IMG/VR virus record: IMGVR_UViG_3300046480_000064
Location: 1 to 21,058 of that record
Reading direction: 5' to 3' (one strand)
Length of the DNA stretch: 21,058 nucleotides
Source: a virus
Part shown: positions 1-18,465 of the stretch, in pieces
How the letters are laid out: every line of letters starts with the position of its first letter
Numbering within the stretch: position 1 is the stretch's first letter
Notes under the pieces: generated by a model
Databases searched by the model: none
The model's input: only the letters and a program-made list of their open reading frames with translations
Told to the model about the DNA's origin: nothing
Program-made: the position numbers and the translations under genes

Positions 1-435
1 GGCAGCCGGATTCACGAGGCGTTCCGCACGGATCGGGCGCGGTTCCTCGCCTATCTCGCCGACGATCTGCGCGAGACGAAGGGGGTGGCGGATCTGCTCC
101 TGCCGACGTACTTCGAGCAGGTGAAGACGTTTCCCCTGTTGCTGCAGGAGGCGACGCTGCGCGGCACGACCAACAAGATCGACGCCCTTTTCCTCGAGGA
201 ATACTACCATGCGCGCCAGAGCTGCCCGGTGCCGCCCGAGGTGCAGCCGTTCGAGGGCGGTTACACGCGCAGCTTTCAAGAGGGCGTGTTCCGGCAGGTG
301 CTTCACTTCGACGTGGCGTCGCTTTATCCGAGCCTGCTGCTCTCCATCGGCGAGAATCCTAGCAGCGATTCACTGGGCGTCTTCATCCCGTTGCTCAGCC
401 GTCTTCGCGAGTACCGGCTCAAACGTAACCGATGA
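1..435 (+). pseudogene. Family B DNA polymerase, N-terminal/central part, interrupted 3' end
   Basis: The frame is open from base 1, so the start lies outside the window, and it ends at TGA 433-435. Visible hallmarks of an archaeal-like family B polymerase are the segment LLLPTYFEQVKTFPLLLQ followed by RGTTNKIDALFLEEYY, the YxGG-like FEGGYTR, and palm motif A, DVASLYPS, which carries the first catalytic aspartate. The expected motif B (KxxxNSxYG) and motif C (DTD) are missing, because the frame stops just after LREYRLKRNR, where the helix before motif B should continue. It is the only + strand gene and converges on the phage operon. I read it as a host replication or repair polymerase cut by prophage insertion. 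The rest should lie on the far side of the prophage. Family assignment is firm; the cause of truncation is inferred. Confidence 0.88.
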
Positions 436-473
436 AATGTTTGAAATGGGTAGCAGAAATAGGTGAAATGGGT
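428..473. other. Probable right end of a transposable prophage (junction, target site and end repeats)
   Basis: The polymerase frame is lost here and short direct repeats begin. TGAAATG occurs at 433-439, 442-448 and 464-470. The longer form TGAAATGGGT occurs at 442-451 and 464-473, exactly 22 bases apart. Mu transposase binding sites are about 22 bases long and Mu ends begin with TG. If the phage starts at TG 433-434, the five bases before it (428-432, ACCGA) fit the Mu target preference N-Y-S-R-N and would be the target duplication. The following 474-601 contains no gene or clear terminator. The exact boundary is inferred. Confidence 0.5.
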
Positions 474-1128: not shown

Positions 1129-4100
1129 TCAAGAGCTGGAGTCGAGCACGAGGCCATAGGACGCCATGGCTGTAATCAGCGACGCCAGGGCGGCATTGGC
1201 TCCCCTGGACCCGGTGACAGTGATCTTGGTCTGCACTGGCGAGCCATTGCAGCTGAATGCCCCAGTCACGAGGCAACTGCCCCAAATCTTTGCTGCGGTT
1301 GTGCTCGAATTGCCAATGCAAGTCGTATTGCTGCCCAGGCCAATGGCGGCGTACCCGAGGACCAGCTCATTCGATACCCCATCCGCAGATGCTCGCGTGT
1401 TGGCACCGACATAGACAGAATTGCTCGTCGTCGCGTTCGCCGTGCTACCGTCGGCAATGTAGCGACCCGCTTGGTAGCCCCAGGCTGTGACATACGACCC
1501 AGTCAGGGAATAGAGAGCAGCGTATCCGCCGGCTGAATTATAGCTGCCGATCTTATTCAACCCCAGGGCATAGGTGCCCATGGCTACGTTCTGCTGACCA
1601 GTGACGTTGCCGTTCAACGCCTGGTATCCAAAGGCGGCATTGTAGGAGCCAGTGGTATCGAGCGACAACGCTGATTGTCCAAACGCGGTATTGATCGTGC
1701 CTGTCGTAAGGGTGGCCCCGGCATTGTAGCCGACGAAAGTGTTGGTGTTGCCTGCACTCCCCGCCCGCATCTCCAAACAGATTGAAGCTAAGGAGTTGTA
1801 CAACATGACAAGTGGGGCAACAGAATTGGCCGTGATCGTCTTGACAGACAATGCGATGGTGCCATCAAACCCAGATGTCGGCGTAATCGTCAGCCCCCCC
1901 GTCGTGCTGGCATAAAGGTCATAGGCCCCTGTCGCGCTGAGTGCGCCGGACGTCTGCCCCCCAAAGGTCACTGTGAACGTGCCTGCGGTTCGGCCGGACA
2001 CTGTATAGGCGACGCGGTACGATGTTGCCGCCGTAGCCACCAAGGTAGTGTCCACCAGAGCATCTACGTACGTGGTCACGTGAGTCCATCCTCCAGCCCA
2101 AGATCCCGTCCAATTGGTCGAGGTCCAACTATCTCCTGATGCCAGTTTTTCGGCGGAGAACGTCGGAAGATCCGTCGCAGTTGTACCCTGGATGGCAATG
2201 CCGTAACCGATAGTCGCACGATTGATTCCAATGCTCGTAATCCCCTGATAGAGCAGGGTTGCATTGGCATTGGGCAGCGTGAACGTCCTCTCGCTTGTGG
2301 TCGGGCCACTGATCTTGGCAAATCCATTACCAGTGCCCCCATTGGCAGACGTCAGAGGATTGGTCAAAGAGAGTGTACTGACGGTAGCTCCAGCGTCCAT
2401 CGTCACCGCACCGTGCAGATAGGTCGCTGCCGTGCCGGAGTGATAAATGAAATACTTGTTCGTGTCGGCATCCATGACACTCCGAATGCCCGCCGTAATG
2501 GGGGAGACGCCACCAGCCGCTGTCGTTTGGTCTGCGATATACAGCACAGATACCGCATTCGCCGACGCCCTCCCAAGATTCCCAGAGTCGATGCCCCGGA
2601 TTGTACCAGTCACGTCCCCCGATGAGGTGGCATATAGGGCTGACAGCTCCATGTAGTATAGATTCTTCAGATTTCCTGATCCGGTAATCTGGGGGAAAAT
2701 TTGGAATCCGTAGATCGTACCGACAGACCCGGAAGACGTAATCCGGATGGATGTCTGACGTCCATAGATTGTGCCTACATTGGCAGCTGTCCCATGCGAG
2801 AGTGTGATTCCCTCGCCGAAGAAGTTGGCGTAGTCATACGCTCCGTAGGTCTGAGCTGTTAGTGCCCAGACCGTCACTGAACTGGTTCCTCCTGAGTCCG
2901 GGACCGGAGCGAAGATGAATGAGTTGACCGTGTTGAGTCCCGCCGCAAGGTACGTACTCGAAACCTGATGGATGCATCCTGTCACCGCTGAGGCACCCAC
3001 CCCCAGCCCGGTTAAGTGGGGGAGCGGGCCGGAATTGTCCCCGGTGAGCAGACTCTGCCCGAGGTAGAGCGTGCCGAATCGCACGCCGTAACTGCCAATT
3101 GTCAGGTCTTGATTCACCGCAGCACTCGCCCCACCTGCGATGCTCAACGTCCCGACGCTGGTATTTGGTGTCCACGTAGCCCCAGCGAGAATCCTGTCAC
3201 ACTTGAAGTTGTATCCAGGGGCACTGTAATGCAACCAATCGGCGTTGGCATAGGTAGCATTGAGCCGGGTATGGTCAGCCGGATCGCGCATCGCTGTATC
3301 GAGATCCACCACGGCATCGACGTTGGTTGGCCCACCCGTTGTTGCCCAGGTGTTAAAATCTACACGCACTGCTTCCCGGCCAGTGGTATAGTAGGCGCTC
3401 CCGTTGAACGGGGTAATCGTGCAGAGTATGACGTAAGCACCGGCAGCATGGGCCGCTGTGGCCATCGTTTGGAGATTCGCCTCTATGTCTGCTACTGCTG
3501 CATCACCTACAATGTCGTTGATTCCCCCCTCAAGGATGACGACTGTGGCCCCGCCGAAATAGTACCGTGCCGCCATCTGGTCCGTAGTGTTGCCCGATAC
3601 CCCTTGATTCACCACGCGCCAGATGGTCGGGTCCAGACCGCTCGACCCGATCAACCGTGTTGCCCATGTGCAGTTTGCAGTCAGGCTGTCCCCCATTGCG
3701 TAAATGAGGGAGAGCTTCCCTGTCGTCATGCCGTTATAGGTCTTTCCGGTCAACGCTGAGGCGATCTTGCCATCTGCGATGGCTGTGGCGTTCCAAGTGC
3801 CCGTAGTGACCGTGCCGAGAGTCACGATGCTGGCGCTGCCAGTGGTGGGAGCATAGGACAACACCGGGATGTCAGCCGCCACAAGGGCACGCATCGAGGG
3901 CACTCCGCTTGATGCTGCTGGGGTTGCCCACACCTTGCCCTGAGTATCAGAAGTGAAGACCGGGGCGTAGGAGAGGGCAGGGATGTCCGAAGCGACCAGG
4001 GCACGAAGGTACGGCACGCCAGTCGTAGTGGGCGGGGTCGCAACCACCAGCCCCGCACCACCCGGAGTAGAGGATGGAGACGTGACCTGAATCCAATCTT

Positions 4101-4407
4101 CATCCGACTCCCCATGATTGGTAATGCAGTAGAAAAACATCCCAGTGTCCGTCTGCTTGATGGTATCCCCCGGCCAGCATCCGACTGCTGGATTCGCCGC
4201 ATCGAAGCCGATCCGGGCAGCCGAGTTGGCGACGGCCCCAAGATGCTTCCCACCACTTGTCAGATGGTGGTTCAGGAACGTCCGATACTGGTCCCGCGTT
4301 GTGTGCACCTCGGATGCTCCCATCACAGCTTCTCCTGTCCCGTGGTTCTGTATCCATAGGCGCTGGACTTCTGTTCCCGTCACCGGGCATATCCGTTCGA
4401 TGCTCAT
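1129..4407 (-). CDS. Tail fibre with an SGNH/GDSL esterase domain and adhesin-head-like repeats
   Basis: 1092 residues; the start is fixed by a 4-base overlap with the gene before it. Residues ~1-115 probably form the tail attachment part. Two similar linker repeats (GVPYLRALVASDIPALSYAP near 130 and GVPSMRALVAADIPVLSYAP near 169) are typical of fibre shafts. Residues ~233-410 are an SGNH hydrolase with all blocks present: GDSL with Ser241, Gly272, GGIND with Asn297, and DWLH with Asp390 and His393. It could deacetylate or de-esterify a surface polysaccharide, but the substrate is unknown. Residues ~889-985 carry repeats like those of trimeric autotransporter adhesin heads (NTAFGQSAL, NAAFGYQAL, NVAMGTYAL), suggesting a trimer. 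The end, GSRGANAALASLITAMASYG, looks like a conserved fibre tip. No S74 self-cleaving chaperone is seen. GC is lower than in the head genes. Confidence 0.9.
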   Translation of the reverse strand: MSIERICPVTGTEVQRLWIQNHGTGEAVMGASEVHTTRDQYRTFLNHHLTSGGKHLGAVANSAARIGFDAANPAVGCWPGDTIKQTDTGMFFYCITNHGESDEDWIQVTSPSSTPGGAGLVVATPPTTTGVPYLRALVASDIPALSYAPVFTSDTQGKVWATPAASSGVPSMRALVAADIPVLSYAPTTGSASIVTLGTVTTGTWNATAIADGKIASALTGKTYNGMTTGKLSLIYAMGDSLTANCTWATRLIGSSGLDPTIWRVVNQGVSGNTTDQMAARYYFGGATVVILEGGINDIVGDAAVADIEANLQTMATAAHAAGAYVILCTITPFNGSAYYTTGREAVRVDFNTWATTGGPTNVDAVVDLDTAMRDPADHTRLNATYANADWLHYSAPGYNFKCDRILAGATWTPNTSVGTLSIAGGASAAVNQDLTIGSYGVRFGTLYLGQSLLTGDNSGPLPHLTGLGVGASAVTGCIHQVSSTYLAAGLNTVNSFIFAPVPDSGGTSSVTVWALTAQTYGAYDYANFFGEGITLSHGTAANVGTIYGRQTSIRITSSGSVGTIYGFQIFPQITGSGNLKNLYYMELSALYATSSGDVTGTIRGIDSGNLGRASANAVSVLYIADQTTAAGGVSPITAGIRSVMDADTNKYFIYHSGTAATYLHGAVTMDAGATVSTLSLTNPLTSANGGTGNGFAKISGPTTSERTFTLPNANATLLYQGITSIGINRATIGYGIAIQGTTATDLPTFSAEKLASGDSWTSTNWTGSWAGGWTHVTTYVDALVDTTLVATAATSYRVAYTVSGRTAGTFTVTFGGQTSGALSATGAYDLYASTTGGLTITPTSGFDGTIALSVKTITANSVAPLVMLYNSLASICLEMRAGSAGNTNTFVGYNAGATLTTGTINTAFGQSALSLDTTGSYNAAFGYQALNGNVTGQQNVAMGTYALGLNKIGSYNSAGGYAALYSLTGSYVTAWGYQAGRYIADGSTANATTSNSVYVGANTRASADGVSNELVLGYAAIGLGSNTTCIGNSSTTAAKIWGSCLVTGAFSCNGSPVQTKITVTGSRGANAALASLITAMASYGLVLDSSS

Positions 4408-4601
4408 TGTTTTTTGGTTGCCTCAGCAGAAGCCTTGGCAATCCCTGCTACATCTTTCTCGCCACCACAGCAGACTCCGATCCCCCTTGGACCCATCTGA
4501 TATGTCACTGGGGGTGGGTCTGGAGGAGGGGGTGGAGGAAGGGGTGGCTCTGGTGGGTCAACGGGATACACAAACCTCTGATATATGAGTACCTTTTTCA
4601 T
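4404..4601 (-). CDS. Proline-rich mini-protein between tip protein and tail fibre
   Basis: 65 residues. It starts inside the stop of the J-like gene (ATGA overlap 4598-4601) and its stop overlaps the fibre start in the same way (4404-4407), which strongly supports translation. Residues 13-31 are almost all proline with Asp/Glu, including six prolines in a row (22-27). A GVCCGG segment with paired cysteines follows at 42-47, then an Ala/Lys-rich helical tail. It has no signal peptide or membrane segment. The polyproline rod could be a flexible or stiff spacer, or an adaptor between tip and fibre. The coupling to both neighbours suggests it is made in fixed ratio with them. No family is recognised. 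Confidence 0.65.
   Translation of the reverse strand: MKKVLIYQRFVYPVDPPEPPLPPPPPPDPPPVTYQMGPRGIGVCCGGEKDVAGIAKASAEATKKQ
4510..4556 (+). other. Possible G-quadruplex in the template strand of the proline-rich gene
   Basis: The + strand, which is the template strand for the phage operon, carries five G runs of three or more within 47 bases: 4510-4514, 4516-4518, 4528-4532, 4541-4544 and 4554-4556. The runs are a by-product of the proline codons (CCN), but together they fit a G4 pattern and could slow polymerase just before the fibre gene. Folding is not shown by sequence alone. Confidence 0.4.
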
Positions 4602-6904
4602 GCATCAAAAACGAGAGTGTAGGATTTGATCCGCTTCTCCCGGCCAACCGTTGCCACCACTTCAATCTCCTCGTCAAGGACCATATTCCCATCCGGGTCG
4701 GCTGAAAGGGATCGTGTGACAGTATCTTCCTCCACCCAGTCGCCAGTTCCGTAGGCCCGCCCTTCCATCAGTACCTGCAACTCATAGGACCACCAAGGGA
4801 GGGCGTTTATCCAACTACCCCTGAACTTGAACTTGAGCCATACCCACGAGATCCCGGTACGCTGCTGGTAAGCCGCGACAGGGGGGTATATCCCCCACCC
4901 GGACCAGGATGCCCCATTGATAAACCGAGTGATTGCATTATCCTCTGTGTCCTCATTGGATAGATACCGGCCACCAGACGTGCTTGTTAGCCTGAAAGAG
5001 TCACCTTCACTACCACGGCAACATCCTCCATTGAAACCCATCGTGGAAGTGGTCTTATCTAGAATCGGGAAGACGCAGACGCTGTTGGCAACGTGATGTC
5101 CGATGTCTGTTGGGTGCAGAGTTGGGCCATATGAACGGACGATGGTGTCGCTTCCTGTCTTCACTCCCGTCACAGGGTCAATATCAAACTCTCCGTCTTG
5201 CTGAGAATACCGTGTCTGCATGGAACCAGCGCAGTGATCTGTGTCAAAATAATAGTCCCACTCCTCCCTGTCTGCTATCGCTCTCACCGTGAGATATTTA
5301 GCTGGCGGGGTGCTCGGATTGGCAAACTCACTATATCCAATTAGAGAAGGGCTCCCATCCATAGTAGAAAACTCCAGCCCACCGGAGGGGGAAGTGGACT
5401 GGTCAATGAGATCGGCATAATCCCCTGGCCGGGGGATTGAGCCCTGTAGCACAGGTACGAAATCCGCACCAACCATGGCCGCGAGCCCAGGATTGCCTCC
5501 TGTCTGATACGGGATTTGCTGAGCGCCCTCCCAAATGTCGGCGGCGGTGGCGCGCAGGGTGAGATCTACCCCGAGCGCCGGTGCGCCGCCTTGGTAGTAG
5601 ATCGCGAATTTCAATTCCTGCACCAGGAAGATCTTCTCCGACCAGCCGAAACGGGCGTTGTTCACCATCACCGTATCTCCGGCCCGGATGCGCAATGCGG
5701 TCAGTTTGCAGGGCATGGTGGCGACCATGTCCAGCCGCGTCCGCTTTAGCTCGATCGTTGCCAGGCGTTGAGCGGTAAAGGCGCTGGTCGTGAATCCCAA
5801 GTCGAGATCTCGCCAGATCGGAACGCCATCCTCCGCGACGGCCGCCGAGTCTTGCACAGCCGGAAAGTCCGCCGGCTGCCATTTGTCCGCCGGCGAAGCA
5901 AACGTGCCTTTCACTCCATTACAGGTATCGCGCATCGATGCCTTTGTCTGCACATCGATGCCCGCCCGAAGATCGTCTTCATCGAGGGTGATCGCCGGCT
6001 CCGTATATGCGCCGGCGTGGCAAATCCATCTCCCGCCAATATACACGGCCCAACCTGCCATGGACCCGCATAGTTGTTCGATCACTGTGGATGGTTGGAC
6101 GGATAGCTCAAAGCAGCCGTTGCATGTGTACCGTTTCTCGGTCGTCCCCCCTGGCAGACTTACGACTTCATCGCAGACGTTCGCTGCCGCGATGAATGAG
6201 GCATCGTCGATTTCGTCGATGGCGACGCCCATGCCGAAGGTTGCATTCGTCAGATAGTCGCGAACTGCCAGCGCGGGATTGTCGCTCCATGCCGTAGCCT
6301 GGGTGCGCGGATCAAAGACCTTTCGGCCCCGCACGACCGCGGTCGGATTCGGTTGCCCTGCGGGGAATTTCTCCTGACTGAACACCAGGTGCCCCGCGAG
6401 ATAACAGATGCCTCGAAGCCGATGATTGCTCGTCCAATAGTACAAACAGCCGTCGACCAGGTCCGCGTCAGCCACCTGGTCATCGGCCCCGAGATGCTTT
6501 TGGATGGAGCCATAGCCCGCATAGTCCCCCGTGAGATTGCCAACCCAATCGAGCTGCGCCGTGATATCGTTGAAATAGATCTGCTCAATCCCATCACATT
6601 CGTGCCCGGCCAGCGTCATCGCAAATCGCAGGTTTTCGTTGTTCGTGCCATTGCAATGGGCGAAAACCAGCGTTCCAGCCACCCGCGTCTTCCCATAGAT
6701 CACCCTGCGCGGATCGACTGGCCCGCGGCTGAGTTGGAGCGGATTGCCACCGTTGAGCGATCCGGTCGGCAGCTTGCCGCGCAACGCCATGCCGATCCCA
6801 TATGCCGCGGCAGCCTCCATTACAGCCCAGACTACTTTCGCCCAAAAGGACCCTGCTTCTATCCAGGCGGCAAAAGCTTCGATGGCTATTTCGACTTGGG
6901 GCAT
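4598..6904 (-). CDS. J-like tail tip / host-specificity protein
   Basis: 768 residues, shorter than lambda J (over 1100). The N-terminus has a hydrophobic helix (~20-42) followed by the GNPLQLSRGPVDPRRVIYGKTRVAG segment typical of J/megatron-type tip proteins. Conserved hub features continue to about residue 480, including DPRTQATAWSDNPALAVRDYL and GDTVMVNNARFGWSEKIF. Residues from ~490 to the end differ in style: aromatic-rich, cysteine-containing and encoded by lower-GC DNA. They probably form the exchangeable fibre-facing part. It follows the NlpC/P60-like gene after 3 bases and overlaps the next gene by 4. It would sit at the tail tip, joined to the tape measure and hub, and guide receptor binding. 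The start is ATG 6904; no Shine-Dalgarno sequence is visible. Confidence 0.85.
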   Translation of the reverse strand: MPQVEIAIEAFAAWIEAGSFWAKVVWAVMEAAAAYGIGMALRGKLPTGSLNGGNPLQLSRGPVDPRRVIYGKTRVAGTLVFAHCNGTNNENLRFAMTLAGHECDGIEQIYFNDITAQLDWVGNLTGDYAGYGSIQKHLGADDQVADADLVDGCLYYWTSNHRLRGICYLAGHLVFSQEKFPAGQPNPTAVVRGRKVFDPRTQATAWSDNPALAVRDYLTNATFGMGVAIDEIDDASFIAAANVCDEVVSLPGGTTEKRYTCNGCFELSVQPSTVIEQLCGSMAGWAVYIGGRWICHAGAYTEPAITLDEDDLRAGIDVQTKASMRDTCNGVKGTFASPADKWQPADFPAVQDSAAVAEDGVPIWRDLDLGFTTSAFTAQRLATIELKRTRLDMVATMPCKLTALRIRAGDTVMVNNARFGWSEKIFLVQELKFAIYYQGGAPALGVDLTLRATAADIWEGAQQIPYQTGGNPGLAAMVGADFVPVLQGSIPRPGDYADLIDQSTSPSGGLEFSTMDGSPSLIGYSEFANPSTPPAKYLTVRAIADREEWDYYFDTDHCAGSMQTRYSQQDGEFDIDPVTGVKTGSDTIVRSYGPTLHPTDIGHHVANSVCVFPILDKTTSTMGFNGGCCRGSEGDSFRLTSTSGGRYLSNEDTEDNAITRFINGASWSGWGIYPPVAAYQQRTGISWVWLKFKFRGSWINALPWWSYELQVLMEGRAYGTGDWVEEDTVTRSLSADPDGNMVLDEEIEVVATVGREKRIKSYTLVFDA

Positions 6905-7927: not shown

Positions 7928-8302
7928 TCAAAGCGCCTCGACAGCTCGGAATGTGAATCCAAAATCGACCGCCAGCCGCGAATCCCAGCCGGGATCCTCG
8001 ATGAGGCGGAATACGTGCGTGCCTGGCGCGGGCGACAGCCCAGGGCAATGCGGCGTCAGGTCGAAATTGAACGTCCCCACCTTGCCCTTCAGATCGAAAA
8101 AGAATTGCGTCCATTGGCCCGCTTCAGCCGGCGCCATGGCCTGCAGCGTCACCTCGATCTCCCATCGCGCACCGGGCCATTGGTAGACCTGCTGGACCAA
8201 CGTGAACGGACTCTCGGCGATGGCCGCGACCGTGTGGCGGAGCACATGGACGTTCTCCGGGAATATGTTGGCCGGCAAACTGAGCGGATAGGTGATCGGC
8301 AT
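7928..8302 (-). CDS. Minor tail protein, candidate distal tail ring component
   Basis: 124 residues. The N-terminus, YPLSLPANIFPENVHVLRHT, and the central WPGARWEIEVTLQAMAPAEA resemble small tail proteins encoded directly after the tape measure gene in Mu-like siphophages. The C-terminus has a beta-rich RLIEDPGWDSRLAVDFGFTF segment. By position it matches the distal tail slot (GTA gp12, lambda M), but at 124 residues it is smaller than most DUF2460-type or Dit proteins. It overlaps the tape measure stop by one base and is followed closely by the hub gene. The role comes mainly from gene order. Confidence 0.7.
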   Translation of the reverse strand: MPITYPLSLPANIFPENVHVLRHTVAAIAESPFTLVQQVYQWPGARWEIEVTLQAMAPAEAGQWTQFFFDLKGKVGTFNFDLTPHCPGLSPAPGTHVFRLIEDPGWDSRLAVDFGFTFRAVEAL

Positions 8303-10290
8303 CAGCGGAAGCCGTCCCGGCGGCGTTTCTGGGCATCGAGCACGGCCGCCTTGCTCGCCTCGACCATCTTGGGCAGGATCGCGAGCACTTCCTCGCGCGA
8401 GACGCCCCCGTTGAATTGGTATGTGAAATGGAATGTGTCTCCCCCGCCAGCCGCGGCAGCATTGCCCGCGACCAGAGCGACGCCGCCGCCCGCCATGGCG
8501 AGCTGCGCCGCGGAACCCGAAATGCTGGTGCGGCCGATCCCCGACAGGGGAATGACCCGGACTAACTCGACTCCGCCGGGGTTGTCACCGACCGTGAAGT
8601 GAGTGGGCCCATGCGTAAGGAAGGATCCGCCGCCGGCGGAAGAGATCTGCATTGTGCTACCAGCGGACCCGAGAGTACTTGCGCCGGCACTGACAGTGCC
8701 GGCGCCGGCGGTCGCCGGAAAGAGACCGAGCACCGCGTTGATGGCCTGGATCATCGCCATCTTCAGGAGGATTTCCGTGAGCATCCGGCCAGCGATGTCC
8801 CCAAGATCCCGGAAGGATTGGCCCCAACTCTGGGTGCCCTTGGTGGCCTCCCAAATGTCGTTCGTAAGGCTTGAAAACGTCTGACCGAGCGTCTGATTCA
8901 GCAGTTGAGAAGCTTGCTCTCCAGCGCTGCCGAGCGATTTCACCCAATCCATCGCGCCGGCCTGCCACCCCTCCGAAGTGGTCATATAGTTCGGATTTCC
9001 GTGCCGGTCATTCACGTGCTGATATTCATCCTGGATCTTGCGAAACGCCTGGGTCTCTCCGCCGGCTGGGTTGATCGCGATCTTTGCTCCCTCTTGCTGC
9101 CATTTCGTAATGTCGGCAAAGAGCTTCCGCTTCTCCTGAAGCTGCGTGAGCTGGGCTTTGGTCAGACCGTTTTCATCCGAGTCAAGCGAGATGTCAGCAT
9201 ACCTATTTGCCATGATTTCGTTCTCGAGATCGACGATTTGCTGGATGATGCCCAATTGCTCCCCCCGCTTTTCGGTCTCAGTTGTGAACCCCTCGCCGGA
9301 GGCAGCCTGATATGCCTGCTGGAGGTATTGCAGGTTCGCCTGCGTGGCTTCCTCGGGGGTCGCCATCACCGGACCCGTCCCCGGGAGTTTCGGGGGAGTG
9401 TCCTTGGATCTTCGGGCCAATCCGTCATAATAGTTGTTATAGGCGTCCATGCCGTAGATCCACGCCGCGGAAGTGGCGCCGAGCCATTGGCCCAATTGCA
9501 TGAACCAACCCACTTCTGTTGTGAGGCCCTTTGCCAAATCCTTTCCGGCGTCGGGATTCTGCTCTAAGATGTCGCCAATTTTCTCGCCTACAGCGATCGC
9601 CATTTCCTGCTTGAATTTCTTAATCTGTTTTTCGGCTTCAGCCAGGCGATTGACCGTATTGTCGGACATGATCCGGCCAGCTTCCTTCTGTGCGTCGGCG
9701 AGTTTACCGTAGCCTTCCGTGGCCAGTTCCTTCAATGCCCCCATCAGCCGGGGTGCATTACGGGCACCGAGTATCTGCACGGCCGAGTCGAAGGCGCGCG
9801 TCTGGTTCGTGCTGCTGAGGATCGCCTTCGCCACCCGCTCAAGCTGCAGCTCCAACGGAAGGCGGCTCAGCTGGTCGACGTCGAGGCCCAGCCGGCGAAA
9901 TTCGGCCGAGGCAGTGCCCGTGCCATTGCGGACTTCATCGAGTTTACCCCGATAGATTGTCAGAGCCATCGTGAGCTGGCCCACGTCGCCACCGGCATCG
10001 CTGATGACGTTTCCCAGTACCTGATATGCTTCGGCCGAAAGGCCGAGATTGGCCGATTGTTCCTTGATCTGGACCGCCATCTGGAACGCGCCGACGACAA
10101 AATCCTTCAGCGAGGTGACCAGCATATCCAGGCCCTTTTGCGCAATGGCGACGCCGAAACCGGTCTTCAATGCCTGGCCAAATCCGCTGGCTTGATCCGC
10201 CGCGTCCTTAATGGCGTCCTTGGTTCGCGTGAGCCCCGACAGCTCATCCCGGATTTGGATCAGGATTTCGAGTGTTGCTTGATCGGACAT
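8302..10290 (-). CDS. Tail tape measure protein
   Basis: 662 residues from ATG 10290 (MSDQATLEILIQIRDELSGL). An alternative TTG start 33 bases upstream reads MPGFPFSQFSA and is less likely. The first 260 residues are helical with alternating Lys/Glu and Ala, typical of a tape measure. A hydrophobic, Gly/Ala-rich stretch (ILLKMAMIQAINAVLGLFPA, followed by many AG/GAS) in the last third probably inserts in the host membrane. The C-terminus ends in FHFTYQFNGG followed by a basic helix, as in lambda H-like proteins. At about 0.15 nm per residue the tail would be about 100 nm (inference). It lies directly after the chaperone G/GT pair, the invariant order in long-tailed siphophages. Confidence 0.9.
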   Translation of the reverse strand: MSDQATLEILIQIRDELSGLTRTKDAIKDAADQASGFGQALKTGFGVAIAQKGLDMLVTSLKDFVVGAFQMAVQIKEQSANLGLSAEAYQVLGNVISDAGGDVGQLTMALTIYRGKLDEVRNGTGTASAEFRRLGLDVDQLSRLPLELQLERVAKAILSSTNQTRAFDSAVQILGARNAPRLMGALKELATEGYGKLADAQKEAGRIMSDNTVNRLAEAEKQIKKFKQEMAIAVGEKIGDILEQNPDAGKDLAKGLTTEVGWFMQLGQWLGATSAAWIYGMDAYNNYYDGLARRSKDTPPKLPGTGPVMATPEEATQANLQYLQQAYQAASGEGFTTETEKRGEQLGIIQQIVDLENEIMANRYADISLDSDENGLTKAQLTQLQEKRKLFADITKWQQEGAKIAINPAGGETQAFRKIQDEYQHVNDRHGNPNYMTTSEGWQAGAMDWVKSLGSAGEQASQLLNQTLGQTFSSLTNDIWEATKGTQSWGQSFRDLGDIAGRMLTEILLKMAMIQAINAVLGLFPATAGAGTVSAGASTLGSAGSTMQISSAGGGSFLTHGPTHFTVGDNPGGVELVRVIPLSGIGRTSISGSAAQLAMAGGGVALVAGNAAAAGGGDTFHFTYQFNGGVSREEVLAILPKMVEASKAAVLDAQKRRRDGFR

Positions 10291-10323
10291 TGCTGAAAAC
10301 TGGGAAAAGGGGAAACCGGGCAA

Positions 10324-11060: not shown

Positions 11061-11939
11061 TCAGTTGCCGGTGATTGCCGCATGGCCGACTGCGCTGAAC
11101 CCGCCAAGATCGGCCATGACGTAAAGGTCGCCATTCGGCGTCCGCGCATAGGTGAAACTCAGCAGGCCGGTCTCATCTGTGACCGCATGGAACACCGCGT
11201 CTGTCGTATCGACCTTGATGAGTGTACCGGCGACGAGCGTCTGGTTGAGAGTGCCAAGGTCGGTCGGGGCACCATAGGATGTGCCCGAAAGGAAGACTTC
11301 CACCGGCACGCGTGCGGCAACGTTGTTGCCCAGCTCGTTCTTGGCCTGTACGGTCACATGGGCGACGCCATCAGGCGTGCCTGTGTTTGCGACCGTGACC
11401 GTGGCGCCTCCGACGACGATATCTGGCGCCGGCTCCCCGTCGATGGGTGTGTATGCGGCGTCCGGGGTGAAGGTGATCGCTCCGTCCTTGCGGGAGCGGA
11501 CCACGAGGGTCAGCTCGGTCGAATTGTCGCCCGAAAAACCCTCTTCGCCTGTGTCGACGAAGATCGTGCATGCGAAATCGTCCGTGCGCAGCGCCACGAC
11601 GGCAGAGGCATCATCGGGGTCACGGATCCATGCCGTGCAGGTGCCCGATTTCGAGCCTGAGAGCGAGCCAAGGAGCGTGATTACTTTCTTCACCTCCTTA
11701 GTCTTGAATTTCAGCAATTCCTTGCGCGCTTTCTCCCAGATCTTATCGGTGAATGCGGGGCCATTGCCCGCGCCGGGCGCCTGACTCTCGCCGATTTCAA
11801 GACCTGGATCATGGCTGACATAGTTGACCAGGAGATTCGTGGTCACGGTGGCGATCGTGAGAGCCAGGATGGATTGGCGACCGGTCACGGCCTTGGTCGT
11901 ATCGTAGGCTGCGGTGGGTAGTGTTGGAGGCGTTGGCAT
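11061..11939 (-). CDS. Major tail tube protein with C-terminal Ig-like domain
   Basis: 292 residues. The first ~175 residues look like a siphophage tube subunit: PTAAYDTTKAVTGRQSILAL, a Lys-rich helix (KARKELLKFKTKEVKKVI), then strands with AWIRDPDDASAVVALRTDDF and TFTPDAAYTPIDGEPAPDI. Residues 179-292 are a separate beta-sandwich domain that decorates the tube surface in many phages. This domain is nearly the same (16 differences in 114 by my alignment) as the end of the decoration-like protein at 14055-15113. One of the few good ribosome sites of the window precedes the start (AAGGA, 6 bases from ATG), consistent with a highly expressed virion protein. The following G/GT and tape measure genes support the call. 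Confidence 0.82.
   Translation of the reverse strand: MPTPPTLPTAAYDTTKAVTGRQSILALTIATVTTNLLVNYVSHDPGLEIGESQAPGAGNGPAFTDKIWEKARKELLKFKTKEVKKVITLLGSLSGSKSGTCTAWIRDPDDASAVVALRTDDFACTIFVDTGEEGFSGDNSTELTLVVRSRKDGAITFTPDAAYTPIDGEPAPDIVVGGATVTVANTGTPDGVAHVTVQAKNELGNNVAARVPVEVFLSGTSYGAPTDLGTLNQTLVAGTLIKVDTTDAVFHAVTDETGLLSFTYARTPNGDLYVMADLGGFSAVGHAAITGN
11064..11405 (-). repeat. Copy 1 of a domain repeated in two virion genes
   Basis: This segment encodes residues 179-292 of the tube protein, from VTVANTGTPDGVAHVTVQAK to the final AAITGN. It matches 14058-14399 at about 98 of 114 residues. Similarity starts sharply at the domain edge and ends at the stop codon. Many third positions differ, so the copy is not recent. 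Confidence 0.9.
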
Positions 11940-12520: not shown

Positions 12521-12982
12521 TCAGATAGACAGCCGGCCCGTCGCTGAATGCGTCCGGGTGCGCTCAGTGATGACCGATGCCGAGGGCTGCTTGCGGTTGA
12601 GATCCGGAGATAGGGGCAGTTCTCCCGTCACGATCTTGTCCAGCAGGCCCGGCTGGCCTCCTTGCTGCCCCGCCGTGCCACGGACGGCCGTCGCACGGGC
12701 CAACCATGGGTTGGAGTCGCCGAAGAATCCCTTGCGCTGGTAAAGCAGTTCGGCAGCCAGCACGAAGCCCGCATTGAGTAGCACCTGCGGCAGTGGATCC
12801 ACTAGCGGCAATGCGTACCGCTGGCCGATCTTGCCATCGATCTCCTGTCCGACCGCCGCGACGATCTGCTGCCAGATATCCATATCCGGCGTCCCGGCGC
12901 CCGTGTCATCGAGCAGCTGGCTGGTGATCTCGTCTGGGAGTCCGGCGATGATCTGGTCGAAGGTGATATAGGCGGTGGCCAT
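12521..12982 (-). CDS. DUF1320 / Mu gp36-like head-tail connector protein
   Basis: 153 residues from ATG 12982; a TTG four codons upstream is a poorer start. Typical DUF1320 features are present: an N-terminal YITFDQIIAGLPDEITSQLL, a central AAVGQEIDGKIGQRYALPL with the conserved arginine-tyrosine-PL motif, then PQVLLNAGFVLAAELLYQRK. In Mu this protein (gp36, gpJ) is needed for head completion or joining. The all-helical fold resembles connector adaptors that bind under the portal. The C-terminus (SPDLNRKQPSASVITERTR) is extended and probably flexible. It is the first gene after the intrinsic terminator that follows the capsid gene. Confidence 0.85.
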   Translation of the reverse strand: MATAYITFDQIIAGLPDEITSQLLDDTGAGTPDMDIWQQIVAAVGQEIDGKIGQRYALPLVDPLPQVLLNAGFVLAAELLYQRKGFFGDSNPWLARATAVRGTAGQQGGQPGLLDKIVTGELPLSPDLNRKQPSASVITERTRTHSATGRLSI

Positions 12983-12990
12983 TGGCTTTG

Positions 12991-13029
12991 ACAAAAGCGC
13001 CCCCGGCGGCGGACGCCGGCCGGGGGCGC
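12991..13029 (-). terminator. Intrinsic terminator after the major capsid gene
   Basis: Bases 12997-13007 and 13019-13029 form a perfect 11 bp GC-rich stem (GCGCCCCCGGC with its complement) around an 11-base loop. On the - strand it is followed directly by TTTT (12996-12993) and GT. It lies 28 bases after the capsid stop and overlaps the start region of the next gene. It could reduce read-through so that head genes outnumber downstream transcripts. Confidence 0.85.
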
Positions 13030-13057: not shown

Positions 13058-13999
13058 TCAGGCGGCGTCGGCCCCGGTGGATCCCCAGGCGAGTTCCGGC
13101 AGGCCGTAGCCGGCGGCATAGCGGCCGTAGGCTTGGTAAAGGAACTCGTGGTTCTTGAAGACGTGGTCGCTGGTCGGCGTATCGAGGGCGGTGAGCACCG
13201 GTGCCACTTCCTGCTGGTGGATGAGCGGCTTCATCGGCCACCCGGTCTCCAGGAGGAACCAGGCATCGGAGCCCCCGAGTTGCGGCCAGACCATCAAACT
13301 CGCCGTCCCCTTATTGACGTTCGTGACCGCGGCCGACGCGACATTCTCAGTGCCCGCCTTGTTCATCGCGATCTGCTGGATGAAGTCGGCCTGCAAGATC
13401 TGGCGGCCGAGCGCCTCGTTCTTTGCCGAGACGACCAAGAGCAATCTGAGCCCCAGATTGAGCGGGCGCCCTTCGGCGTTTTTGCGGCTTTTGATGTCGG
13501 CGCGCGCCGTCTCGAAATTGGTCGAACTGAGTTTCTTCGTGCCCTTGTTGTCGAAGGTGGTCTTCCCTTTCTGCGGCTCATGCCCGGTGTCGAAGAAATT
13601 CTTGCCCGTATAGCATTTCGTGGTGAAGCCGGCCAGCAGCAGGTTGGCAATCAGCTCGTCGGGATGCTGCTTTGCGGCGAGGCCCAAGGCGCTGAACCGC
13701 GGGTTGTACAAGCCATAGGCATTCCGCTCGATGTCGGCCTGGCGGACGCCGATCGCGTCATAGTACTCGTCGTTGACGATCGAGTACCTGTGCGCGGCAA
13801 GATTCGCCACAGTGATCTCGCCCAAAAGCTTCTTCATGCCCGGAAAGCTGCCGAGCCAGGCATAAACCTCTTCGGCTGCGCTGGACGGAACCAGGGTGGC
13901 GACCTGGTCCCACATCGCCGCGCCGGCCTGGTATGCCTCGTTGAAGATCACGCGATAGGCGCGGAAGAGTTCGGTCAGGGAGGATTGATTGATTTGCAT
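13058..13999 (-). CDS. Major capsid protein, Mu gpT-like
   Basis: 313 residues, close to Mu gpT (about 305). The N-terminus (MQINQSSLTELFRAYRVIFNEAY) with a nearby AAMWDQVATLVPSSAAEEVYAWLG segment is characteristic of the family. Other conserved parts are GVRQADIERNAYGLYNPRFSALG, YTGKNFFDTGHEPQKG, and WPMKPLIHQQEVAPVLTAL with DHVFKNHEFLYQAYGRYAAGYGLPELA near the end. It builds the HK97-fold shell. It follows the protease/scaffold and decoration genes, and a strong terminator comes after it. There is no Shine-Dalgarno sequence: the bases before ATG are pyrimidine-rich (CTTCTCTCCTC). Confidence 0.92.
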   Translation of the reverse strand: MQINQSSLTELFRAYRVIFNEAYQAGAAMWDQVATLVPSSAAEEVYAWLGSFPGMKKLLGEITVANLAAHRYSIVNDEYYDAIGVRQADIERNAYGLYNPRFSALGLAAKQHPDELIANLLLAGFTTKCYTGKNFFDTGHEPQKGKTTFDNKGTKKLSSTNFETARADIKSRKNAEGRPLNLGLRLLLVVSAKNEALGRQILQADFIQQIAMNKAGTENVASAAVTNVNKGTASLMVWPQLGGSDAWFLLETGWPMKPLIHQQEVAPVLTALDTPTSDHVFKNHEFLYQAYGRYAAGYGLPELAWGSTGADAA

Positions 14000-14054: not shown

Positions 14055-15113
14055 TCAGTTTCCGGTGATGGCCGCGTTCCCGACCGCGCAGATCCCGCCG
14101 AGCTGGGCCATGACATAGAGGTCGCCGTTAGGTGATCGTGCATAGGTGAAGCTGAGGAGGCCCGTCGCATCGGTGACCGCGCGGAACTCGGCGTCGGTGG
14201 TGTCGACCTTGATCAGGCTGCCAGCCACCAGGGTCTGGTTGAGGGTGCCGAGATCGGCCGGCGCGCCATAAGAGGTCGCGGAGAGGAACACGGCGACCGG
14301 AACGCGGGCCGCGACGTTGTTGCCCTGAGCGTCCTTGGCCTGCACGGTCACATGGGCGACGCCGTCCGGGGTGCCTGTGTTGGCGACCGTGACAACGGCG
14401 CTCGCAACGATCATCTGCGCGACGGCGGCGGCAAGCTTGGCAGCCGTAATCGCGCCGGCGCCGACCGTGCCCACGACCGGGAGGTGATAGGTGGAGTCCA
14501 CCCAGACACCATCGCTGTCGATCGCGATCGCCAGGCCGGCTTTCACGGCATTGCTGTTGCTGTGGGCAACGGTGTGATCGTCCTCGACGTAGATCACGGT
14601 GTTCAGATCGGCGGTGACAACCGCGCTGCCCGTGCTATTCGCCCATTTGAAGCAGCCGCGCTTCACATTGACCATGAGATCGCCCGGCGCGCCCGCTGAA
14701 TTGTCCACATCCGCCTCGATCCGGCCGAAAGCGACCAGGCCGGTCGTATCGGCTGCCGGCACGACATAGCCGCTCGCGTTGAGCGCTGCCATGGTACCAG
14801 CGTAGAGTTTCGTCGAGGCAGCGACAGGATAGGCGGCCACGGCGCCTGCGCGCTCGGGCGTGTCGATCGGCTCGTCCGAAGAAAGACCCAGCGCCAGAGG
14901 GGCGACGCACCAGAGTTCGCCGATCCAGCCATGGATCGCCATCAAGGCGTGCGACAAACCGATCTTGAAGACCATGCCGACGTTCTCGAAAAACAAGGTG
15001 GCGCTGTTGGTCGGCGGCGATCGGTCGACGCCCAGCGGCGGGGCGAGGAAGGCAGTGAACAGGCCCAGGATGAAGATCAGCGGGGCGAGGAAGGCAGTGA
15101 ACAGCGTTTTCAT
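14055..15113 (-). CDS. Head decoration-like protein with hydrophobic N-terminus and C-terminal Ig-like domain
   Basis: 352 residues in three parts. Residues ~1-78 are hydrophobic, with a 14-residue tandem repeat (FTAFLAPLIFILGL, FTAFLAPPLGV) and further apolar stretches. This is unusual for a virion decoration protein and looks like a signal or membrane segment. Residues ~80-210 (PVAASTKLYAGTMAALNASG, RIEADVDNSAGAPGDLMVNV, FKWANSTG) match the layout of Mu-type capsid decoration/DUF2190-like proteins encoded between protease and capsid. Residues 239-352 are the Ig-like domain shared with the tail tube protein. The N-terminal part could be a separate or fused gene, or translation may begin at one of the internal Met codons (such as the one in GMVFKIGL). 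Virion role: likely, by position. Confidence 0.75.
   Translation of the reverse strand: MKTLFTAFLAPLIFILGLFTAFLAPPLGVDRSPPTNSATLFFENVGMVFKIGLSHALMAIHGWIGELWCVAPLALGLSSDEPIDTPERAGAVAAYPVAASTKLYAGTMAALNASGYVVPAADTTGLVAFGRIEADVDNSAGAPGDLMVNVKRGCFKWANSTGSAVVTADLNTVIYVEDDHTVAHSNSNAVKAGLAIAIDSDGVWVDSTYHLPVVGTVGAGAITAAKLAAAVAQMIVASAVVTVANTGTPDGVAHVTVQAKDAQGNNVAARVPVAVFLSATSYGAPADLGTLNQTLVAGSLIKVDTTDAEFRAVTDATGLLSFTYARSPNGDLYVMAQLGGICAVGNAAITGN
14058..14399 (-). repeat. Copy 2 of a domain repeated in two virion genes
   Basis: Residues 239-352 of the decoration-like protein; partner of 11064-11405. Both copies sit at the extreme C-terminus of their proteins and end in AAITGN. Confidence 0.9.
15038..15104. 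repeat. 25-base direct repeat, 42-base period
   Basis: The same 25 bases (from GCGGGGCGAGG to GTGAACAG) occur at 15038-15062 and 15080-15104. In the protein this gives FTAFLAP twice, 14 residues apart. It appears to be a small in-frame tandem duplication at the start of the decoration-like gene. Confidence 0.85.
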
Positions 15114-15173: not shown

Positions 15174-15617
15174 TCAGACGGCCTTGTTGTGCTTGTCCCA
15201 CAGCTCTTTCGTGATGCCCATGGTCTTCATGATCTCATCACGGACGGCATTGCCCTGGCTGATGCCGCTGCTGTGGGTCTTGATGCCTTCCACCGTGCGC
15301 TTTTCCATCGGGACCTGGTCGGCCGGAAGTTCTTCGACCAATTTCTTGAAGGCGTCGACCGGCAGTTCCATGGCCGATTGCGGGATGATCTTGCCGGCGG
15401 AGAGCGCGCGGGCCGCGATGCTTTCGCGCTCGGATTTCTCACTGGCCTTCTTCAGGGCTTCGATTTCCCCGGTGAGCTTGAGGATGTCGGCAGTGTTCGT
15501 CTTGACGGCGCTGTCGGGTTCGTCCGCTTCTTTCTTCACGGCTGCGGTGATCGCCGCATCGGTCGCCGTATCGGGGAGATCGAGCACGGACAAAAGCAGT
15601 TTCTTGTAATCGAGCAT
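15174..15617 (-). CDS. Putative scaffold made from an internal start in the protease gene
   Basis: ATG 15617 lies in frame in the protease gene and begins MLDYKKLLLSVLDLPDTATD, which resembles the usual N-terminus of separate scaffold proteins. The 147-residue product is highly charged and helical, with a Lys/Glu-rich coiled coil (LTGEIEALKKASEKSERESI). In Mu and lambda the scaffold (Z, Nu3) is made from a nested start in the protease gene. No clear ribosome site is seen, so this is inferred from layout. Confidence 0.45.
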   Translation of the reverse strand: MLDYKKLLLSVLDLPDTATDAAITAAVKKEADEPDSAVKTNTADILKLTGEIEALKKASEKSERESIAARALSAGKIIPQSAMELPVDAFKKLVEELPADQVPMEKRTVEGIKTHSSGISQGNAVRDEIMKTMGITKELWDKHNKAV

Positions 15618-16130
15618 GGCGGGAGTGGTTGGTTGTTCGTCGGAAAATAGAGAGAGAAGCGGATCACCGGAGTTGAGCTGCAGGGGCAGATCATCGGTCG
15701 CGCCATGGCGGGCCAGGGCGACGCTGTGCACGAAGACGACTTCGTTTGCCTTGTTCACGAGAATCGCCGGGCTCAGGTCGTTGAAGTGTCCGCCCTTCGC
15801 GGCCTCACTGCCCTCCGGGGTCCAGCGATCGGCCGTATGCAGATAGATCCCCTCGCCAGGCACGACTTCGAGAGGCCCATAGGCGGCACGTTTGCGCGGC
15901 TCTTTCTCCGCCTTGAATGTCGTGCTACCAGGGACCGTGTTGTGTTCGAAATCCAGATCGACCGTATCGAAATTGACGGCGTGGAGGTTCTTCGGCAGCT
16001 CGCGGACGGTCGTCTCGTTGACGACGTAGTCGCCATTCACTGACTTGTTCGTGCCCCATTTGCCGACCAGAAGCCGCTTGGGGAGATCGGGTCCGGAGGC
16101 GAAATTCAGGCGGAAGGTGCGGAGCAACAT
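15174..16130 (-). CDS. Mu I-like prohead protease with C-terminal scaffold region
   Basis: 318 residues from ATG 16130; a GTG seven codons upstream (16151) is an alternative. The N-terminal ~165 residues are the protease: KWGTNKSVNGDYVVNETT, VDLDFEHNTVPGST, and DLSPAILVNKANEVVFVHSVALARHGATDDLPLQL, which is the family's conserved FSPA...VALT-like region. The last ~140 residues are charged and helical and look like a scaffold. The protease cuts scaffold and itself during capsid maturation, inside the prohead. It lies in the Mu order between gpG-like and capsid genes. Confidence 0.85.
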   Translation of the reverse strand: MLLRTFRLNFASGPDLPKRLLVGKWGTNKSVNGDYVVNETTVRELPKNLHAVNFDTVDLDFEHNTVPGSTTFKAEKEPRKRAAYGPLEVVPGEGIYLHTADRWTPEGSEAAKGGHFNDLSPAILVNKANEVVFVHSVALARHGATDDLPLQLNSGDPLLSLFSDEQPTTPAMLDYKKLLLSVLDLPDTATDAAITAAVKKEADEPDSAVKTNTADILKLTGEIEALKKASEKSERESIAARALSAGKIIPQSAMELPVDAFKKLVEELPADQVPMEKRTVEGIKTHSSGISQGNAVRDEIMKTMGITKELWDKHNKAV

Positions 16131-16230
16131 GGCGCGTTTGAAAGACGCCACTGTGCCGCAAATGCACCTTGCCTGGCTATCGTCGCTGGCGCGCCTGGCG
16201 ACGGTGGGGAGGTTTCCGCGCGCCCCGTTT

Positions 16231-16261
16231 TGTAGGAAGCCCGCTCGCGGGCGATCCTACA
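16231..16261. repeat. REP-like palindrome at the end of the gpG-like gene
   Basis: 31 bases: arms TGTAGGA/TCCTACA (7 bp) then GCCCGC/GCGGGC (6 bp) with a TC loop and a small internal mismatch. It resembles the REP elements moved by RAYT transposases in many bacterial chromosomes. Its CTA (16257-16259) is the TAG stop of the gpG-like gene. There is no U run on the - strand after it, so it is a poor terminator. The 16152-16230 stretch beside it is non-coding. Confidence 0.65.
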
Positions 16262-16733
16262 TCAGCGCATTCAGCGCCCGCAGCGCTGCTGCACGCACAC
16301 TTTTCACCGCGAGCGGAGTCAGTATGTTGCTGTCCGGCGTGCCCCAAATCGGAAGCATCGGCCGCGGTGGAATCCGCCCGTCCTTCGTGCCGAACTGGTG
16401 GAGCGATGCGAGCGACAGCCCGCCGGGCGTGGCCCGGTCGCTGCCAACGCGGACGGTGTCATTGGTCGTTTCAAACACCCGATATGATCGCCAAAGAAGG
16501 CCATGCCGCTTCAGGATTGCCGTCGAAGTTCCCTCTTTGATCTTCTGGAGAAGGGTCGATTCCTTGAGCGGAGCCCAGGGCGAGGCGCGCACGCTTGGGT
16601 CGTTGAAACTGCGCGTCGCGAGCGATACGACCGCTAGGCCGGCCGCCTCCGATATCGACTCGGTATTCATCAGCTTGGACTGCAGCCGATCGAGCGCGAC
16701 TGTCGCCAGATCCTTGATGATGAGTTCGGCCAT
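16257..16733 (-). CDS. Phage virion morphogenesis protein, Mu gpG-like
   Basis: 158 residues, nearly the usual length. Conserved features: WAPLKESTLLQKIKEG, LKRHGLLWRSYRVFETTNDTVRVGSD, and SLASLHQFGTKDGRIPPRPMLPIWG, the HQFG...IPxRPxL pattern of the Phage_tail_S/virion morphogenesis family. It acts in joining tail to head. It follows the 47-residue small gene, in the Mu order F, G, protease. The stop codon lies inside a REP-like palindrome, so its natural C-terminus may have been replaced. No Shine-Dalgarno sequence is visible. Confidence 0.85.
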   Translation of the reverse strand: MAELIIKDLATVALDRLQSKLMNTESISEAAGLAVVSLATRSFNDPSVRASPWAPLKESTLLQKIKEGTSTAILKRHGLLWRSYRVFETTNDTVRVGSDRATPGGLSLASLHQFGTKDGRIPPRPMLPIWGTPDSNILTPLAVKSVRAAALRALNALM

Positions 16734-16765: not shown

Positions 16766-16909
16766 TTAAGCGTCGCCGGACTTTGCTGGCGCAGCGCTTA
16801 GGTCAACGTCGGGCGTCGACTCGACCACCATCACCTCCGAGGCCTCACGCGTCCAGCCGGCCGCGATGAGCTTGTCGACTTCCAGCATCTGTTCTTCAGT
16901 GAGTTTCAT
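16766..16909 (-). CDS. Small 47-residue protein after the MuF gene
   Basis: ATG 16909 overlaps the MuF-like stop in an ATGA (16906-16909); stop TAA 16768-16766. Sequence begins MKLTEEQMLEVDKLIAAGWT and ends PAKSGDA. It is acidic, with one predicted helix and a disordered tail. The 4-base overlap and position support translation. It reads like a small UBA-like or coupling peptide, but I recognise no family. Confidence 0.6.
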   Translation of the reverse strand: MKLTEEQMLEVDKLIAAGWTREASEVMVVESTPDVDLSAAPAKSGDA

Positions 16910-18465
16910 TTGATCCATCCTTTTGCGCGGAAGAGTTTATCGATCGCCGTGGCCACGGGTGCGAAATCAGCGTCCGACCATTGGATGAGTGTGCCGATTT
17001 CCGGGATATCGCGAATCAAATTGAGCTGCTTGAGCATCTCCGCATCGCCGCTGCGCGTCGCGATGTATTGCGCATAGGAGCGCGCCCAGATCTCCAGTGG
17101 CTTGAGATAGTAGGCGGCATTGTAGATCGGCTTGCCGTCCACTATGCCCTTATCGATCGCCTTGATCGCGGCCGTCGCATCCACAGCCGCGCGCCATTCG
17201 GCAAATGCGGGATCGCTCTTCGATGCGAACGCGCCTGCCTCGCCGAGCGCCTGGTAATCGAGCAGATGCCCGATCTCATGCGCTGCCGTCATCCTTGGCC
17301 AGGGGCTATCGGCACTCACGCCGATGCGATCCTGCCCTGCGAAGAACGTGCCGTTGGCGCCTCTGCCCGCGGCCGCATCGACAGTGATCTTCGGCAGCGT
17401 GCCGTCATCGTGCACCTTGTCGATCGTCGCGATCGTCGCCGTGATGTCCGCAACATGCGCTGCCTTGGTCGTCACCTTGAGCGCGGCACTGACTGCCGTC
17501 TTCTTGGCTTCTTCCGATCTGGCATCCGTTTTCCCGGCCGCGGCCGCAGCCGCAATGACCGGAGGCTTTGGCGCCGGCGTCGCCGCAGGCTTCGGCGCGA
17601 CCGTCACGGCCGGCTTGCCCGCGCCGTTGAGCCAATCCCACACGTTGCCCTGCCCGGATCCGAGATCGGTGGATTGCGCCCAGGCCGTAAAGGTTGCCCA
17701 TGTTTCGGGATCATACCGTTTGGCCAGGTCCGCGACATTGATGTCCATCGTCGTCTGGTTCCACCGCCCCGTGCCATCTGTCGTGGTCACGTTGAACTCG
17801 CGCGGCATGCCGTTGTCGCCGGGAAGCGCGCGGACCAGGCGGCCGCTGGTCTCGATGTCGTGCAGCCGGTCGCCATCGAGCACGCGCTGTTCTTCCGGCA
17901 GCGCATCGGCGTCATCCAGCTGTATCTGGTCAACATCCTCCGGACTGAGCGCCACCTTGATGCAGCGACATCCCCATTCGCGTTTCCGATCCCAGAAGGG
18001 AGAGTCGGCCGGCAATACCAGTTGATCGAGGGCGGCATGAGTGTCGCGCACGCGTTCGTCTTCCATGGTTTGGTACTGCCAATAGGGAAACGCTGCCTGC
18101 TGGCGGTCCATGACAGCGGTGGACGCGGCATCATATGCCGCAAACCCGTGCGTCCGGAGCAGCAACTCGGCCCGGGATTCGCCCCGGCCGACTTCCTCAG
18201 TGTCCAGGTAAGGCGAGATCTGCCCCGCGATGTCCGCCTTCACCGCATCCCAATCCGCCCCCTGCGGCAGGTCTGCAATCCGGTCGCGAACTGCCTGCAG
18301 CACGTTTGCGGCCTCGATACCGGTGACCGTGAACGCCCGGGCCTGGAGATCGGGCAGCATGCCGTTGAAGATGTCGCGGCTGACGACCGGTTTCGACGCG
18401 ATGAAGTCCGCGGCATCTGTGTTCGGGACCGGCGTTGTCAGAAATGTTGTCGGGAAGTCAGGCAT
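16906..18465 (-). CDS. MuF-like minor head protein fused to a zincin-like metallopeptidase domain
   Basis: 519 residues. Residues ~30-172 are the MuF core, ending in YWQYQTMEDERVRDTHAALD and the REWGCRCIKVAL strand with the conserved CxC (166, 168). It joins portal to scaffold and enters the host with DNA in related phages. An Ala/Pro/Lys linker (~282-312) leads to a C-terminal domain with AAHEIGHLLDYQALG: HEIGH at 396-400, a fitting HExxH zinc site with Asp403, and Glu458 in PLEIWARSYAQYI as a possible third ligand. MuF proteins often carry toxin or peptidase tails. Targets are unknown; it could cut phage scaffold or a host protein. ATG 18465 follows the previous gene by 10 bases. Confidence 0.88.
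   Translation of the reverse strand: MPDFPTTFLTTPVPNTDAADFIASKPVVSRDIFNGMLPDLQARAFTVTGIEAANVLQAVRDRIADLPQGADWDAVKADIAGQISPYLDTEEVGRGESRAELLLRTHGFAAYDAASTAVMDRQQAAFPYWQYQTMEDERVRDTHAALDQLVLPADSPFWDRKREWGCRCIKVALSPEDVDQIQLDDADALPEEQRVLDGDRLHDIETSGRLVRALPGDNGMPREFNVTTTDGTGRWNQTTMDINVADLAKRYDPETWATFTAWAQSTDLGSGQGNVWDWLNGAGKPAVTVAPKPAATPAPKPPVIAAAAAAGKTDARSEEAKKTAVSAALKVTTKAAHVADITATIATIDKVHDDGTLPKITVDAAAGRGANGTFFAGQDRIGVSADSPWPRMTAAHEIGHLLDYQALGEAGAFASKSDPAFAEWRAAVDATAAIKAIDKGIVDGKPIYNAAYYLKPLEIWARSYAQYIATRSGDAEMLKQLNLIRDIPEIGTLIQWSDADFAPVATAIDKLFRAKGWIK

Follow-up and report, generated by a model that had tools for sequence, protein, structure and literature searches.

Transposition leaves a target duplication of 5 bp in phage Mu and of 6 bp in phage B3 (PMC8705779). 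The transposable phages described before a group in Leptospira with TA ends and a 6-bp duplication had TG...CA ends (PMC8705779). In the Verrucomicrobia, two Mu-like phage proteins have been mentioned for a degraded prophage, and no more than that (PMC6920513). In the literature, mainly non-subscription papers, I found no report of 4-bp duplications and no transposable phages with defined ends in the Opitutaceae. The polymerases of Salinibacter and Nostoc/Anabaena phages, the closest phage relatives of the gene fragment described below, have been assigned to the uncharacterised bacterial B-family group G3 (Kazlauskas et al. 2020, PMC7544198; for further context, PMC12926913).

The DNA analysed here (the window) corresponds to an entire public virus record, 21,058 bases long. 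With a probability of about 0.93, I take it to be the right part of a Mu/B3-type prophage with a siphophage-like tail, transposed into a chromosomal gene for a family B DNA polymerase in a member of the Opitutaceae, the family of Geminisphaera colitermitum TAV2. The frame at 1-435, in which the first-pass annotation had recognised a family B polymerase with motif A and a stop at 433-435, matches phrog_262 (family B polymerase, E 1e-13) as well as the Salinibacter phage polymerases (tblastn, query residues 12-141), contains motif A (DVASLYPS) and ends at TGA 433-435. Its polymerase part covers a portion of the exonuclease-to-motif A region and motif A, as far as ...REYRLK. Verrucomicrobiota genomes, reached via relatives of the window's head protein, carry chromosomal genes with 82%, 77%, 64% and 46% identity to the fragment, and within the Opitutaceae the gene is present in 210 of 252 genomes, the best identity being about 90%. 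An intact homologue has the exonuclease and polymerase domains (PF03104 and PF00136) and ends in QGELF; the comparison with group G3 considered these two domains and a C-terminal clamp-binding motif. The stop is not conserved in phage-free relatives, as motif B (NSFYGYLGF) follows in all 32 genes for which the script obtained a reading over the break point. RL(K/R/x) is followed in these relatives by (Y/F/C/S)-K, which in the window is replaced by R-N-R-stop, so that polymerase homology ends at about 423 and not at 432. A search of viral contigs with the N-terminal fragment found no relative.

Because the minus strand of the remaining contig encodes Mu-type head proteins and a tail protein of the lambda J type (Table 1), the region around 430 lies at the right end of the phage. 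The repeats with a 22-base interval noted there earlier are real: TGAAATGGGT occurs at 442 and 464, where 0.02 are expected, and two copies appeared in no shuffle. The exact 41-base end sequence was found in none of the viral contigs. The initial proposal had been a canonical Mu-type end, with the phage starting at TG 433, ACCGA (428-432) as target under the rule N-Y-S-R-N and a 5-bp duplication. There is indeed a TG followed by repeats, and by inspection ACCGA fits the rule, but CGTAACCGA (424-432), the bases from 424 on, recurs at the right ends of the UBA2377 and G130 prophages, which are inserted elsewhere. Relatives at other insertion sites likewise have CGTAAC(C)GA beside the same repeats, and the left end of TAV2_C38 has ACCGAG. 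As prophages at other sites share this end sequence, ACCGA is phage DNA and not target; moreover, the polymerase homology has already ended at about 423, and the far side of the insertion reads TCAA instead of ACCGA. This proposal is contradicted already and has next to no chance of being right; a close phage-free relative with in-frame AAACGTAACCGA would revive it. The phage end thus lies at 423, and the bases 423-433 give the interrupted Lys codon its final base, followed by R-N-R and the TGA stop.

Table 1. Features of the window, and right ends of related prophages (read inward)
Feature	Position in window	Strand	Evidence or sequence
Host family B DNA polymerase gene, 5' part, truncated by contig end	1..422	+	phrog_262, tblastn, Opitutaceae homologues
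Target duplication, right copy, TCAA, 4 bp	419..422	.	left copy in L117: GCACG-TCAA-GTACAAACAG
Phage right end, terminal 11 bp, ACGTAACCGAT	423..433	.	comparison with related right ends
First end site GAAATGTTTGAAATGGGT (presumed transposase binding site)	434..451	.	conserved in 8 right ends
Second end site, 22 bp further inward	456..473	.	similar to first site
Large protein near right end, GDSL-lipase domain (probable tail fibre or receptor-binding protein)	1129..4407	-	PF13472 E 5e-16
Lambda J-like tail protein	4598..6904	-	phrog_5616, phrog_31
Tail tape measure protein	8302..10323	-	phrog_9483
Head-tail adaptor	12521..12994	-	phrog_195
Mu-type major head protein	13058..13999	-	phrog_371; 67% to L002, 57% to Spartobacteria prophage
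Head maturation protease	15174..16151	-	phrog_328
Tail completion/neck protein	16257..16733	-	phrog_26
Mu F-like minor head protein	16906..18465	-	PF04233 E 2e-12; phrog_220
Window right end			ACGTAACCGAT-GAAATGTTTGAAATGGGT
UBA2377 right end			CGTAACCGAGC-GTAATGTTTGAAATGGGT
G130 right end			CGTAACCGAGC-GAAATGTTTGAAATGGGT
TAV2_C132 right end			CCGTAACGCGA-AAAATGTTTGGAATGGGT
TAV2_C116 right end			CGTAAACGCGC-AAAATATTTGGAATGGGT
G049 right end			AGTAACCCGCC-GAAAAGTTTGAAACGGGT
G060 right end			CCGTAACAGCC-AAAATATTTGAAATGGGT

When viral contigs were scanned with aligned C-terminal polymerase halves, a separate record of 9,024 bases was returned, IMGVR_UViG_3300046480_000108 (L117). Its phage left end has sites of the same type and is followed by TCAAGTACAAACAG..., which is the polymerase reading from the break codon through to the stop, with motifs B and C and the terminal QGELF; the break falls at the same codon as in the window, and TCAA stands on both sides, at the window's right end and at the left end in L117. 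Together with the intact gene in relatives, this half bears out the earlier idea of a transposable prophage inside the polymerase gene, between motif A and motifs B and C. The look at the far side that had been proposed thus gave a divided answer: the C-terminal half was there, but the adjoining bases are TCAA and not ACCGA, and the duplication is one of 4 bp (419-422 in the window) instead of the five bases foreseen. The sequence of the two contigs itself shows the split gene, both phage ends and the 4-bp duplication.

It is unlikely, though it deserves some weight, that the two contigs come from separate lysogens in which related phages chose the same polymerase position as a preferred target. 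They are separate records, and the base after TCAA (A in the phage, G in the host) fits either case. However, other prophages of the group sit at unrelated sites with the targets GTGG, GGGA, TTAT, TTAA, CTGT, AACC and ATCC, so that no strong target preference is seen. The gene sets are also complementary, the portal being in L117 and not in the window, and heads and tails in the window and not in L117, and the same six genomes are closest to both polymerase halves. Identity is 90% for the N-terminal half and 82-83% for the C-terminal half, a gap similar to that seen in intact genes, and the GC contents of the two phage parts are 60.7% and 60.4%. I therefore infer that window and L117 represent one lysogen. 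The flanks could in principle be host DNA packaged in virions, as PMC5977238 describes host DNA at both ends of transposable phage virions, or the product of a chimeric assembly; both are very unlikely. A chimera would not yield a gene split in register together with a 4-bp duplication. In Mu virions the left host flank is short, and the host DNA at the left end in L117, about 1.4 kb, is longer than that.

Apart from its host part, the window represents a Mu/B3-type transposable prophage, of which it holds the right portion. The Mu-type head genes reported at first sight are confirmed by phrog and Pfam matches: an F-like protein, protease and major head protein in the window, and a Mu-type portal in L117 (PF06074, E 2e-59), preceded by terminase-like frames and directed toward the left end. 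The same arrangement, with a portal close to the left end and transcribed outward, recurs in seven related prophages. At L117:3957-7467, and in the prophages of G002, G003, G049, G060 and G130, the portal stands at the extreme left, apart from the other head genes; terminase-like genes beside such a portal are seen in L117. Three further features of the contigs may be mentioned. A 171-aa frame at 19206-19721 (minus strand) shows similarity to X-family DNA polymerases in their palm and thumb (PF14791 E 3e-11, PF14792 E 0.005) and possibly encodes a phage-borne PolX-like protein. Two frames among the virion genes, 11061-11939 and 14055-15113 (minus strand), have a common C-terminal domain of 120 aa with 82.5% identity, probably a recently duplicated Ig-like surface domain. 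Finally, 36 bases at 16186-16221 are 97% identical to L117:1512-1547, while the contigs are otherwise without overlap; this stretch, encoding a LARLATVGRF-like peptide in both, may be a repeat dispersed in the host or the phage group.

With the related prophages, a rule for the ends can be stated. In all eight resolved insertions, each at a different site, the phage DNA extends 11 bp beyond the first end site at either terminus and is flanked by a 4-bp target duplication. Four insertions served to set the rule, UBA2377 (GTGG), TAV2_C132 (GGGA), TAV2_C116 (TTAT) and window plus L117 (TCAA), and four more, checked after it had been fixed, all fit it: G049 (TTAA), G130 (CTGT) and two in G060 (ATCC and AACC). 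For G060, the left flanks were predicted from the right-end contig flanks ATCC and AACC before retrieval, and those found were ATCC and AACC; the ends of the collapsed element contig lie at most 1 or 2 bases from the predicted termini. The chance of a 4-base match at a fixed offset is 1 in 256 per insertion. The count of eight leaves out G110a, G110b and TAV2_C207, which have AGAGYCGGGG-type ends, and the right end of TAV2_C38. The insertion sites are unrelated and carry a short target duplication, as in transposable phages, but the termini are not the Mu-type TG...CA that had been supposed: they are C/T on the left and C/A on the right, mostly C. At the right ends of C132, the window and G060, one extra outer base offsets one base fewer inside. 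This compensation, together with the variable terminal base, favours a rule of distance.

A duplication of neither 5 bp, as in Mu, nor 6 bp, as in B3, describes this group. A length of 5 bp fits UBA2377, G130 and G049 and fails for C116, C132 and the second G060 copy. A true length of 6 bp, as in B3, obscured by later mutation, is distinctly improbable. It would agree with UBA2377 (GGTGGC) and G130 (GCTGTC), which match over 6 bp with termini 10 bp from the site; however, the two identical G060 copies match over exactly 4 bp at a common offset, elsewhere the mismatches are confined to the two outer positions with none in the central four, and the outer positions match in 5 of 12 cases, about chance level. 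A blind search of the related prophages for TG...CA ends with 5-bp duplications gave chance pairs only. ACCCATTTCA, near the end of L003, was rejected as an end site, being located inside a reading frame that by inspection resembles a transposition ATPase.

Two variants of these elements were seen in passing. The G110 genome has two prophage copies (G110:C1, about 5.12 Mb and about 6.97 Mb, L097-L104) that are 99.8% identical over 33.5 kb; the match ends about 2.4-2.6 kb before the left end sites, which suggests that a left-end module was exchanged between prophages. The left ends of the two copies differ, and no clean duplication was obtained. In G060, a 14.26-kb derivative (L115, G060:C94:1-14273; flanks in G060 contigs C38, C39, C73 and C175) is present in at least two copies, each with its own 4-bp duplication. 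It retains the portal, tail genes and both ends, the early region being apparently absent, and a search of the G060 genome with the UBA2377 transposase gave no match; possibly it is a deletion derivative mobilised in trans.

The event is an ordinary insertional knock-out by a new variant of transposable phage. A transposase, known from relatives and outside the window contig, would bind the end sites with their 22-bp spacing and cut 11 bp outside the first one, the position being set by distance. Joining of the phage ends to a target cut with a 4-bp stagger would duplicate TCAA and sever the polymerase after ...REYRLK, leaving motif A beside the right phage end (window 1-422) and motifs B and C, together with the terminal QGELF, beside the left end in L117. 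The N-terminal part would then read into the phage end and stop after R-N-R, and polymerase function would presumably be lost. Here an uncharacterised B-family polymerase of bacteria, one that most Opitutaceae retain, is disrupted in nature, which suggests that this lysogen, at least, can do without the enzyme. The end rule is of greater use than the knock-out itself: it lets the termini of such prophages in the Verrucomicrobiota be placed, and a group with 4-bp duplications and variable termini would help to reveal how Mu-family recombinases determine the length of the stagger and the position of the cut.

Compared with known systems, the fragment resembles the G3 polymerases in that its nearest phage relatives belong to that group, which makes it a candidate member, and differs in that the gene is interrupted. 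The transposase and the AAA transposition ATPase are absent from the window contig, whose left part is missing. In UBA2377, the closest fully bounded relative, they match phrog_310 (E 5e-16) and phrog_296 (E 9e-23); the transposases of TAV2_C132 and C116 had no match in PHROG, and that of UBA2377 had none by tblastn in phage records. Pseudomonas phage B3 (Beetrevirus) has the same transposase family (phrog_310) and AAA transposition protein (phrog_296), and B3 and related transposable siphophages also share Mu-type heads, a lambda J-type tail gene and scattered insertion sites. However, B3 has the ends TGAGAG...GCTACA and a 6-bp duplication instead of ends other than TG...CA and 4 bp, and it differs in the portal module, which is inverted at the left end in the Opitutaceae relatives. 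Faecalibacterium phage FP_Mushu (Mushuvirus), one of the nearest named phages when major head proteins are compared (40%), likewise has a phrog_310 transposase, but its own ends are TGTGGG...GCTACA, its contractile tail is of the Mu type, and portal and terminase are in line with the head genes. The Leptospira prophages with TA-TA ends also break the TG-CA rule (PMC8705779), yet they have a 6-bp duplication and a constant TA, in contrast to the 4 bp and variable terminal bases found here. As the gene kit is kept while duplication and termini depart from both models, the phage falls outside the strict Mu and B3 groups and is a new variant of transposable phage. The Opitutaceae thus probably harbour a B3-related lineage that cuts at a set distance (11 bp from the end site, with no terminal TG/CA), makes a 4-bp stagger and carries portal and terminase inverted at its left end.
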